64,000 nt of DNA from Sulfitobacter sp. 20_GPM-1509m (GTDB lineage Bacteria; Pseudomonadota; Alphaproteobacteria; Rhodobacterales; Rhodobacteraceae). The notes beneath the pieces were generated by a model that did not search any database, was not told the origin of the DNA, and saw only the letters and a program-made list of their open reading frames with translations. Location of the stretch: contig NZ_JIBC01000006.1 of assembly GCF_000620505.1 (NCBI RefSeq), forward strand, positions 310,001 through 374,000. Direction: 5' to 3'. Shown piece by piece: positions 41,317 through 45,021 of the stretch (its first letter is position 1; every line of letters begins with the position of its first letter). A program made the translations under genes and the position numbers.

Positions 41317-41408
41317 TGTTCACTCCGGTCATCCCTGCACTTCATCTTGCCCGTAAAACTCCCGCCGGAGGCTCCCACCTCTGCCACGCGAACCGAAAGT
41401 CGAACTGA
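41316..41408 (+). CDS. 30-codon micro-ORF exactly bridging nuoD and nuoE
   Basis: An ATG overlaps the nuoD TGA (TGATG at 41314-41318) and the frame ends in a TGA that overlaps the nuoE ATG (TGATG at 41406-41410). The peptide would begin [19 protein letters not shown] and is not hydrophobic. nuoE has no clear ribosome site, so ribosomes may reach it by reading through this frame and restarting. It may be a translational relay rather than a functional protein. Confidence 0.45.
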
Positions 41409-42583
41409 TGCTCCGCCGCTTGCACCCTGACCAACCCGAAAGCTTTGCCTTCACCCCCGCCAACCAGGCCTGGGCCGAGGCACAGATCACCAAGTACCCC
41501 GAGGGCCGTCAGGCCAGCGCCATCATTGCGCTGCTGTGGCGCGCGCAAGAGCAAGAGGGCTGGCTGACACGCCCCGCAATTGAATCCGTCTGCGAGATGC
41601 TGGGCATGGCCTATATTCGCGGGCTGGAAGTGGCGTCGTTCTACTTCATGTTTCAGCTGCAACCGGTTGGTTCCGTGGCACATATCCAGGTCTGCGGCAC
41701 CACGTCCTGCATGATCTGCGGCGCCGAGGACCTGATGGCGGTCTGCAAGAAAAAGATCGCCGCGAAACCGCACGAGCTGTCTGCGGATGGCAAGTTTTCG
41801 TGGGAAGAGGTCGAATGCCTTGGCTCTTGCGCCAACGCACCCATGGCCCAGATCGGCAAGGATTATTACGAGGATCTGACAACCGACCGCATGGCCGAGA
41901 TCATCGACGAGTTGGCCGCAGGCCGCGTGCCCGTGCCCGGCCCGCAAAACGGGCGCTATGCGTCCGAGCCGCTCAGCGGTCTGACCTCGCTGACCGAATA
42001 CGACAGCGGCAAGACACAATATAACGCCAGCGCACAGCTTGCGACGGACATCGGCGACACCATCAAGCGTATTGACGGGACCGAAGTGCCGCTGACCGCA
42101 CCATGGCAGGGCAAGGCGGCCAATGCCTCCGGCAAACCGCCCGCCAAGCCCAAGACACGCACGGCCCCCTCTGCGCCCGTGACCGAAACCAAGGCCGAAG
42201 TGGCACCTGCGCCTGCGTCCGAAGCACAGTCCAAGGCCAAGCCGCCACGTACCGAAGCGGAGCCCACACCCGCAGCCGAGGCGGGTGCAGGCAAGAAGCC
42301 CCGCACCATGAAAGCGCCCCGCAAGGCCGGTGCCGACGATCTGAAGCTGATCAAGGGCGTCGGTCCCAAGCTGGAAGCGATGCTGAACGAGATGGGTTAT
42401 TTCCATTACGACCAGATCGCCAAATGGGGTCCTGCAGAAGTGGAATGGGCCGATCAGAACCTTGTCGGCTTCAAGGGGCGCGTCAGCCGGGACAACTGGG
42501 TCGAACAGGCGGGCAAGCTGGCCGCCGGTGAACAGACCGAATTTTCCAACCGTGCCAAAAAGGACGGTATCTATAATAAATAA
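41408..42583 (+). CDS. nuoE: NADH-quinone oxidoreductase subunit E with C-terminal helix-hairpin-helix extension
   Basis: Thioredoxin-fold subunit carrying the N1a [2Fe-2S] cluster, ligated by [11 protein letters not shown] and [10 protein letters not shown]. At 391 aa it is about 150 aa longer than a standard NuoE. After the core (to about residue 220) comes an Ala/Pro/Lys-rich linker (about 225-297). The C-terminal module (310-391) begins [20 protein letters not shown], a helix-hairpin-helix motif, then [16 protein letters not shown]. The same module ends the next gene product, with 57 identities in 80 ungapped columns. NuoE pairs with NuoF in the NADH-oxidising tip. Confidence 0.95.
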
Positions 42584-42606
42584 AAATTAATCAGGAGAGG
42601 GACCAA

Positions 42607-43485
42607 ATGAACGAGAACACACAAATGCAGGATTGCACACGCAAGTGTTGGATGCTGTCGGCGATCGCGGGGGTGGTGATTGCCATCCTGATGATCGCCT
42701 TTGCGGGCTGGACATTCTTCAGCTCGATCCTTGCGGGGATCGTGATTTTTGTTGTTGGTGGCTTTCTCCTGAAATCCATGCTCTGCGGTGCGCTGGCCGA
42801 TCAGGCGCAGGACACTGCGGCTCCGGCACAGGCTCCGGCACAGGCCGCAGCGGCACCCAAGCCTGCCGCTGACACGGCCCCCGTGGCGGATGCTGCCGCA
42901 CCAGAGGCTGAAAGCGTGGAACCGGCAGCGGTTGCTGCGGCACCTGCGCCCGCCGACAAGGTTCTGGTGAAACCCAGTGCCCGTCTGGCAGGTCAGGAAG
43001 AACTGGCCGCGCGCAAGGGCGACTGGAAATACGAAAAACCGGCAGAGGCGGCACCGGCCAAGGCGACCGCAAAGGCGGCACCCGCCAAAAAGGCACCGGC
43101 CAAGAAGGCTCCCGCAGCCAAAGCCCCCGCAGCCAAAGCAGCCGCAAACAAGGACGCAACCGCTGCCGCGACCACGACGCGCGCACCCGTGGCCGCCGAT
43201 GGCAAGCCCGAGATGCTGGACGCCCCGCGCGAGGGCGGGCCGGATGATCTGAAACAGATCAAGGGCGTCGGCCCCAAGCTGGAAGGGCTGCTGAACGAAA
43301 TGGGCATCTACCACTTTTCGCAGGTGGCCGGATGGCGCAAGAAAGAAGTCGAATGGGCCGATCAGAACCTTGTGGGGTTCAAAGGTCGGGTCAGCCGTGA
43401 TGAATGGGTCAAACAGGCCAAGGTGCTGGCCAAAGGTGGCAGCACGGAGTTTTCGAACAAGGTCAAGAAAGGCGGCGTTTACTAA
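42607..43485 (+). CDS. Membrane-anchored protein with the NuoE-type helix-hairpin-helix module
   Basis: 292 aa. The N-terminus is a short polar start, then a long hydrophobic region (about residues 15-57, WMLSAIAGVVIAILMIAFAG and FFSSILAGIVIFVVGG) likely forming two helices. A long Ala/Pro/Lys linker with PAKKAPAKKAP-type repeats (about 62-200) leads to the C-terminal module (213-292) beginning [20 protein letters not shown]. Strong site AGGAGAGGG precedes the ATG. The shared module with NuoE suggests it binds the same partner or that the two modules pair, tethering the peripheral arm to the membrane. Function is inferred, not known. Confidence 0.75.
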   Translation: MNENTQMQDCTRKCWMLSAIAGVVIAILMIAFAGWTFFSSILAGIVIFVVGGFLLKSMLCGALADQAQDTAAPAQAPAQAAAAPKPAADTAPVADAAAPEAESVEPAAVAAAPAPADKVLVKPSARLAGQEELAARKGDWKYEKPAEAAPAKATAKAAPAKKAPAKKAPAAKAPAAKAAANKDATAAATTTRAPVAADGKPEMLDAPREGGPDDLKQIKGVGPKLEGLLNEMGIYHFSQVAGWRKKEVEWADQNLVGFKGRVSRDEWVKQAKVLAKGGSTEFSNKVKKGGVY

Positions 43486-43725: not shown

Positions 43726-45021
43726 ATGTTGCAGGACAAGGACCGGATCTTTACCAACCTCTACGGTATGCACGACCGCACGCTGAAAGGCGCGCAGGCG
43801 CGTGGCCATTGGGATGGTACGGGCGCGATCATCAAGAAGGGTCGTGACTGGATCATTTCCCAGATGAAAGACAGCGGCCTGCGCGGGCGCGGCGGTGCGG
43901 GTTTCCCGACCGGTCTGAAATGGTCGTTCATGCCCAAGGAAAGCGACGGTCGCCCGGCCTATCTGGTGGTGAACGCGGACGAATCCGAACCGGGCACATG
44001 CAAGGACCGCGAGATCATGCGCCACGATCCGCACACGCTGATCGAGGGGTGCCTGATCGCGTCCTTCGCGATGAACGCCAACGCTTGCTACATCTACATT
44101 CGCGGCGAATACATCCGCGAGCGCGAAGCCCTGCAAGCGGCGATCGACGAATGCTATGACGCGGGTCTGGTCGGCAAGAACGCCGCGAAATCCGGTTGGG
44201 ATTTCGACATTTACGTGGCCCACGGGGCCGGCGCCTATATCTGCGGCGAGGAAACCGCGCTGTTGGAAAGCCTTGAAGGCAAGAAGGGCATGCCCCGGAT
44301 GAAGCCGCCGTTCCCGGCGGGTGCGGGTCTGTACGGCTGCCCGACCACGGTGAACAACGTCGAATCCATCGCCGTGGTGCCGACGATCCTGCGCCGCGGG
44401 CCGGACTGGTTCTCGTCCTTTGGTCGCCCCAACAACGCGGGCACCAAGCTGTTTGCGATCAGCGGTCACGTGAACAACCCCTGCGTCGTCGAAGAGGCGA
44501 TGTCGATCACGTTCGAAGAGCTGATCGAAAAGCATTGCGGCGGCATTCGCGGCGGCTGGGACAATCTCAAGGCTGTGATCCCCGGCGGGTCATCGGTGCC
44601 CTGTATTCGCGGCGAGCATATGCGCGAGGCGATCATGGACTTTGACTATCTGCGCGAGCAGCGGTCCGGTCTGGGCACGGCGGCGGTGATCGTGATGGAC
44701 AAGGACACCGACATCATCAAGGCGATCTGGCGTCTGGCCAAGTTCTACAAGCACGAAAGCTGCGGCCAGTGCACGCCGTGCCGTGAAGGCACCGGCTGGA
44801 TGATGCGCGTGATGGACCGTCTGGTCAAAGGCGATGCCGAGGTCGAAGAGATCGACATGCTGCTGGACGTGACCAAACAGGTCGAGGGCCACACCATCTG
44901 CGCGCTTGGCGATGCGGCGGCCTGGCCTATTCAGGGTCTGATCCGCAACTTCCGCGACGAGATCGAGGACCGTATCAAACACAAACGCACAGGCCGCGTC
45001 AGTGCCGTGGCGGCGGAATAA
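43726..45021 (+). CDS. nuoF: NADH-quinone oxidoreductase subunit F (NADH-binding, 51 kDa type)
   Basis: Binds NADH, FMN and cluster N3; 431 aa. FMN/NADH-site motifs are [18 protein letters not shown] and [32 protein letters not shown] is also present. The [4Fe-4S] ligands are in [12 protein letters not shown] (about residues 344-355) and the fourth Cys in [13 protein letters not shown]. It works with NuoE at the tip of the peripheral arm. The start has only a weak ribosome site, 6 bp after the 72-aa gene, suggesting coupling. Confidence 0.97.

Follow-up and report, generated by a model that had tools for sequence, protein, structure and literature searches.

Protein-O at the complex I locus of a Sulfitobacter genome in which no reaction-centre gene was found

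Why does NuoE, which belongs to the NADH tip of complex I, share its C-terminal tail with the product of the gene next door, and what is that neighbour? The question is raised by the nuo operon of Sulfitobacter sp. 20_GPM-1509m, a genome of 4.74 Mb in 23 contigs with an estimated completeness of 99.99%. The window, by which we mean the whole stretch of DNA that was analysed, comprises 64,000 nucleotides, and the features on which the argument turns are as follows, in window coordinates.

41408..42583, + strand: nuoE, extended form, 391 aa (NCBIfam NF009040, 618.2 bits vs a cut-off of 514; Pfam PF01257)
42329..42574, + strand: C-terminal HhH-type module of NuoE, residues 308-389 (63/93 identity to the protein-O ortholog over a slightly longer stretch)
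42607..43485, + strand: protein-O ortholog, 292 aa (phmmer match to 8yy9_O, E 7.6e-47)
42634..42813, + strand: transmembrane hairpin of the protein-O ortholog, residues 10-69, with Cys10, Cys14 and Cys60 (AF2 helices; superposition on 8yy9_O)
42970..43035, + strand: conserved linker motif of the protein-O ortholog, KPSARLAGQEELAARKGDWKYE (same motif form in other O1 and NuoE sequences and in 8yy9_O)
43234..43482, + strand: C-terminal HhH-type module of the protein-O ortholog, residues 210-292 (AF2 model of 43237-43482)
43726..45021, + strand: nuoF, downstream of the protein-O gene (ORF, named from sequence)

The match of NuoE to NF009040 (PRK12373) spans residues 1-387 and lies above the curated cut-off; the window's NuoE is a member of this extended family and shows no difference from it that matters. 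The neighbouring ORF starts 23 nt past the nuoE stop, its ATG is preceded by AGGAG, and it lies between nuoE and nuoF, a position by which the protein-O family is recognized. The initial annotation had aligned the tails of the two proteins without gaps at 57 of 80 positions, a count that we reproduced by setting the neighbour's C-terminal 80 residues against NuoE up to residue 389, and the two sequence motifs it quoted are present. BLASTP extends the match to 63/93 identities with no gaps (E 2e-42), and the best of 2000 shuffled 80-residue tails, placed at every NuoE offset, reached 17 identities. The homologous module on NuoE and its neighbour is thus real, although the interval first given for it, 42500-43485, needs to be redrawn: the NuoE module begins earlier, at 42329, and ends at 42574, and that of the neighbour occupies 43234-43482.

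When the PDB was searched with the whole neighbour using phmmer, the matches comprised 8yy9_O ('Reaction center protein O chain'; E-value as listed above), 9wqv_a (E 7e-32, to which little but the module end contributes) and 9lts_A ('Protein LRC', E 5e-4, over the hairpin part). The match to 8yy9_O includes a domain over protein-O residues 8-149 with an i-E of 1.3e-10. According to the structure titles, 9lts_A belongs to the RC-LH1 of D. shibae, 8yy9_O to that of a marine photoheterotroph, and 9wqv_a to the LH1-RC of Rhodovulum sulfidophilum; the photoheterotroph of 8yy9 is likewise D. shibae, according to the excerpts of PMC12079452. With the PufM of one surveyed genome, G035, as query, a reaction-centre M chain was found in 8yy9, 9lts and 9wqv alike. 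G035 appears to be D. shibae; it has an ORF that agrees with 8yy9_O wherever the alignments are comparable, and the alignment of its PufM with 8yy9_M covers the full 330 residues.

AF2 models the N-terminus of the neighbour as helices at residues 4-32 and 37-69, and the first three Foldseek matches to this model are again 9lts_A, 8yy9_O and 9wqv_a, all of them weak (E 0.1 to 0.5). Superposition on 8yy9_O is close (0.7 A over 52 columns, TMt 0.94, probability 1.00; Foldseek E 0.32), and that on 9wqv_a, a chain of 110 residues in the structure library, is poor (rmsd 14.9, probability 0.91). The hydrophobic anchor noticed earlier is thus supported as a membrane anchor, but is corrected to a transmembrane hairpin with two long predicted helices. 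The model of the whole protein gives the linker at low confidence and says nothing on docking. Sequence, hairpin fold and gene position together make the 292-aa neighbour a protein-O ortholog, and we class it as such and not as an RC-LH1 subunit.

Protein-O of D. shibae (8YY9, 8YZ2, 9JPB; PMC12079452, Adv Sci 2025) is described, in the excerpts of that paper, as a protein of 239 residues whose hairpin, residues 8-59, lies between RC and LH1 and carries a Cys10-Cys59 disulfide. The same excerpts liken its C-terminal domain to the C-termini of NuoE and other proteins, place its gene between nuoE and nuoF, and call its function unknown (section 2.3). The shared module and the nuoE-nuoF position are, on those excerpts, already in print for D. 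shibae; the text parts contain no statement on bacteria without a photosystem. The window's protein is like that of D. shibae in the transmembrane hairpin, the cysteine pair (10/60 vs 10/59), the flexible linker with the same motif, the C-terminal module and the gene position, but differs in that no RC-LH1 gene was found in its genome and in that the linker is unlike outside the module and the motif. The module is also homologous (E 2.3e-26) to that of 9WQV chain a, entitled 'NADH:ubiquinone oxidoreductase 41 kd complex I subunit', from Rhodovulum sulfidophilum; this protein differs in coming from a phototroph, and the likeness of its hairpin sequence is not significant (8.8 bits, i-E 13). Our search of the literature found no paper for 9WQV or 9LTS. 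Protein-U/Y of the Rba. sphaeroides RC-LH1 has a transmembrane hairpin in a similar RC-LH1 position, as described in the excerpts of PMC12079452, which also call its sequence quite distinct from that of protein-O. The excerpts of the P. denitrificans complex I paper (among PMC11522691 and PMC8115037) list no such subunit, and the 239-aa NuoE chain 8qby_E has no tail.

In the window's protein-O, Cys10 stands at one end of the hairpin and Cys60 at the other, a disulfide as such not being visible from sequence. Six of the 111 O1 sequences have no hairpin (single-TM proteins, one masked, two probably cut NuoE ends); among the remaining 105 hairpins, 76 have both end cysteines, 28 have neither and 1 has a single one. 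Non-phototrophs have both cysteines in 36 of 47 cases and phototrophs in 17 of 27, and the mean identity of the hairpin is 0.267 in non-phototrophs vs 0.275 in phototrophs, with no detectable difference (156/500 permutations).

Could the protein nevertheless serve a photosystem in this organism? The window's genome gave no match to PufL/M (PF00124), PuhA (PF03967) or BchY (TIGR02015), and two phototroph genomes run alongside in the PF03967 and TIGR02015 searches, G035 and that of locus L096, match both. As far as the assembly goes, a role in RC-LH1 is therefore closed to the window's protein-O, which probably has another, perhaps respiratory, partner. The best-matching of 80 loci is L096 from Pseudosulfitobacter koreensis, which has PF00124, PF03967 and BchY, so that the lineage of the window may have lost photosynthesis not long ago. 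A plasmid-borne photosynthesis cluster is a possibility in this group.

The family was surveyed in 61 genomes, each of a different genus and 23 of them with PF00124; the loci were 59 nuo loci around NuoE, one module locus from a genome without a good NuoE (G032) and the window. Scoring was possible in 58 genomes, G022, G028 and G032 being dropped because of a cut locus or a missing NuoE. Between nuoE and nuoF, 12 of the 21 phototroph genera and 21 of the 37 non-phototroph ones have an ORF with hairpin plus module (odds ratio 1.02, p 1.0, Fisher, ignoring kinship). A second set, which may overlap the first, consisted of 43 genomes, mostly isolates, out of the 80 loci, these being the best 80 of 562 by module similarity and, since they were picked in that way, leaning towards window-like modules; protein-O is present in 41 of the 43, and PF00124 is absent from 26 of these 41. 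This wider result is independent of the window's single genome. Phototrophy was rejected as the explanation of protein-O for the family, given the equal frequency in the first set and the 26 of 41 in the second, and a family kept without RC-LH1 must be more than a photosystem subunit. Fewer phototrophs than non-phototrophs have the NuoE tail (13/21 vs 32/37, p 0.049, Fisher, ignoring kinship), which does not favour a photosystem-centred role and proves no role in complex I.

In the 58 scored genomes, NuoE tail and O module occur together in 30, the NuoE tail alone in 15, the O module alone in 3 and neither in 10, a co-occurrence above chance (p 0.009, Fisher, ignoring kinship). The nuo loci of five of the 15 genomes with the tail and no O module (G005, G018, G038, G039, G056) have, by eye, a hairpin ORF without module beside the tailed NuoE. 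Small hydrophobic ORFs of 74-92 aa lie between nuoE and nuoF in G005, G014, G031, G038, G043, G044 and G045, and are conserved and alike in most of these seven genomes. Further ORFs that carry the module and lack a hairpin (O2) are found between protein-O and nuoF at L128 4336-5403 and L133 4290-4955, and also in G002, G020, G025, G047 and G053; several look phasin-like by eye, which Pfam did not confirm.

How the two modules are related was examined at the level of residues, codons and trees. Thirteen residues (D4, L6, G11, G13, P14, G24, H27, Q30, W34, R52, R55, W58 and Q61) are near-invariant in both, being conserved at 98-100% in 119 NuoE and 111 O sequences. In the window, 0.61 of the synonymous codons match vs 0.51 expected (z 1.5), and in most of 100 genomes (G011 and L133 being identical in sequence) synonymous matching stays close to what codon usage predicts, with a mean z of 0.68 and six genomes above z 3. 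Synonymous matching near expectation together with shared invariant residues points to long purifying selection on both modules, which are, as far as their sequences tell, old paralogs. A recent duplication was accordingly rejected for the window, where synonymous codons are near expectation. At locus L171, identity between the NuoE module and the O module is 99%, and 94% of the codons match vs 61% expected; this pair looks like a recent conversion or duplication, and like the only clearly recent case.

Modules from the same genome resemble each other slightly more than modules from different genomes (NuoE-O similarity 0.698 vs 0.668, 0/10000 permutations, 99 genomes), against a NuoE-NuoE similarity of 0.682 and an O-O similarity of 0.676. 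The excess is real but small, and the O module from its own genome ranks at a median of only 26th of 99 for a given NuoE tail. In a FastTree of 196 modules from 98 genomes, the E and O labels change 35 times, compared with a mean of 65.8 and a minimum of 54 in 100 shuffles, and the class signature separating E from O modules is 3.42 vs a null maximum of 2.23. (L133, identical to G011, was left out of the similarity test, and L145 additionally of the tree; L142 and L149, both without a NuoE core, were excluded too.) Going by these sequence comparisons, the E and O modules are not wholly alike, the tree separating them in part and some positions differing between the two classes; free exchange of the module between nuoE and the protein-O gene was rejected as the rule in view of the tree labels and the class signature. 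Coupling between E and O in two indel types is not significant (p 0.11).

The fold of the module was predicted for the O module alone, a check proposed in the initial annotation: the AF2 model of 43237-43482 is confident and all-helical, with six helices of at least 4 residues (mean pLDDT 94.0, pTM 0.83). A profile search of the module returned the RadA N-terminal domain (E 7.6e-4) and, below significance, eL32, Pol IV and the NusA acidic repeats; the RadA and NusA matches span about positions 2-42 of the 68 of the module. Neither window protein matches Pfam HHH_5 at E<=1 or reaches its gathering score, and a copy of the module on the ribosomal protein L21 of the window's genome passes it (29.3 vs 27). 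The RadA match and the L21 copy together support the HhH-type relationship proposed at the outset. Foldseek of the module gave no significant match (best E 0.35): the top match is a trypanosome mitoribosomal chain, ranks 1, 4 and 5 are mitoribosomal chains, RadA and NusA AR2 are in the top six, and Pol iota is also among the matches. RadA is thus a distant relative with significant profile likeness and weak fold likeness, and NusA a distant one in which the profile likeness is not significant and the fold likeness weak. The HhH-type repeats of NusA bind proteins. The title of 6ib8 names NusA AR2 complexed with protein SuhB.

A search for other proteins with the same tail, likewise proposed earlier, did find them. 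In the window's genome the module profile detects three good copies, on NuoE, on protein-O and, as the third and weaker copy, at the L21 C-terminus, along with two further matches at E >0.1. In L21 (L005 850-1695) the C-terminal module stands behind a Lys/Ala linker, and its presence there means that the module is not private to the NuoE/protein-O pair. In a survey of the class, the module is found at E 1e-8 or better in 10 of 115 genomes, including the window's own and one family mate; the hosts, read by eye from the ORFs with L187 kept out of the assignment, are NuoE, protein-O, L21, S2, apparent one-TM proteins and one multi-TM protein. NCBIfam confirms L21 for L005 and S2 for L195, so that HhH-tailed L21 and S2 (NF008915/NF008916 and NF008966) share the C-terminal module on ribosomal hosts. 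An apparent multi-TM protein at L185 carries two copies of the module. In genome G082 (L183 and L191), the NuoE and protein-O modules are, by eye, both L21-type-like and mutually alike, which suggests a joint replacement. No viral relatives were confirmed, with no match in PHROGs, and seven records of a plasmid collection (Sinorhizobium, Rhizobium, Shinella, Methylobacterium) showed module-level matches only. The net charge of the module over the matched stretch has a median of -3 in the 119 NuoE and 111 O1 sequences, none above +3, and the window's O module, counted to the C-terminus, has a net charge of +5.

The linker between hairpin and module is variable, apart from a short motif, G[QE]xEL..RKGxWxY, that is present in 30 of 111 O1 and 8 of 119 NuoE sequences; it is seen in the window's protein-O and in 8yy9_O. 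AF2 models the motif as a short helix with modest confidence. It leans to phototrophs without significance (12/27 vs 10/47, p 0.063, Fisher, ignoring kinship). We know of no description of this motif.

Our preferred explanation, which we put forward tentatively and at somewhat less than even chances, is that the neighbour is a protein-O of the complex I locus whose module binds, together with the NuoE tail, one shared partner, more likely a protein. The protein joins a hairpin in the membrane to an HhH-type module through a long flexible linker that bears a short conserved motif. The O module and the NuoE tail would bind the same partner, protein being likelier than nucleic acid, and what the tail secures at the NADH tip of complex I would be held at the membrane by the hairpin. 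The RC-LH1 ring is where this hairpin is located in at least some phototrophs; in the window its membrane partner would most likely be complex I or another respiratory complex. The orthology to protein-O, the genome without reaction-centre genes, the independence of phototrophy, the cysteine pairs, the near-invariant residues that both modules keep under long purifying selection, the co-occurrence of the modules and their slight excess of within-genome likeness support this explanation, and it is weakened by the 15 genomes with the NuoE tail alone, the module on L21 and S2, the P. denitrificans excerpts that list no such subunit, the tailless 8qby_E, the phototrophic P. koreensis, the E/O class signature, the charge of the window's O module and the leaning of the linker motif to phototrophs.

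Against the shared partner stands the earlier proposal that the modules bind each other and so tether complex I to the membrane protein, a tether that in phototrophs would extend to RC-LH1. Adjacent genes, the co-occurrence and the within-genome excess of similarity speak for mutual docking, as do the weak likeness to the NusA acidic repeats and the SuhB complex of 6ib8, but the near-invariant residues are common to both modules and not clearly complementary, either module can occur without the other, the own O module ranks poorly for its NuoE tail, and ribosomal proteins carry the module as well; we regard such docking as unlikely. The data lend no support to a strict docking pair of NuoE and O, or to the dedicated pair as originally formulated, given the 15/58 genomes with a tail and no O module, the 3/58 with the reverse, and the presence of the module on L21, S2 and other proteins. 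Partial separation, shared invariant residues and co-occurrence are more readily explained by one common partner than by an exclusive lock-and-key fit, without deciding the matter. The module's presence on L21 and S2 and the mitoribosomal chain at the top of the non-significant Foldseek matches may be a sign that the partner is a ribosome or RNA, in line with a second alternative, in which the module binds rRNA, mRNA or DNA as a common tail of NuoE, protein-O, L21 and S2, perhaps bringing ribosomes or the nucleoid near membrane complexes. This we consider rather unlikely: the GVGPK hairpin, the RadA match with the weaker ones to eL32 and Pol IV, and the +5 of the window's O module are consistent with it, but the negative median charge, the protein-binding repeats of NusA and the want of any significant Foldseek match argue otherwise. 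The earlier preference for protein over nucleic acid binding is accordingly favoured weakly by the charge of the family and runs against that of the window's own module.

A relic left by a recent loss of photosynthesis, or a photosynthesis cluster that escaped assembly, for example on a missing plasmid, would explain why the solved members of the family are RC-LH1 chains, and that the best-matching relative is a phototroph adds weight to the relic; yet protein-O is equally frequent in phototroph and non-phototroph genera, its hairpin is not detectably less conserved in the latter, and in the window the ORF is intact with AGGAG ahead of its start, so that we judge this improbable. What is new is that protein-O is kept at the complex I locus in genomes without a reaction-centre match, with its cysteines mostly kept.

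Protein-O has so far been described as a photosystem subunit of unknown function. Photosynthesis cannot be the whole of its general role, and its place in phototrophs may be the result of recruitment. A more far-reaching proposal, which we hold to be quite doubtful, is that protein-O is a two-partner membrane adaptor of the Rhodobacterales, engaging complex I through its module and, in phototrophs, the RC-LH1 ring through its hairpin, the respiratory link being the older and more general one. If that were true, complex I and the photosystem would be physically linked and have one local quinone pool in common. Non-phototrophs give a direct test of what the tail of NuoE and protein-O binds.
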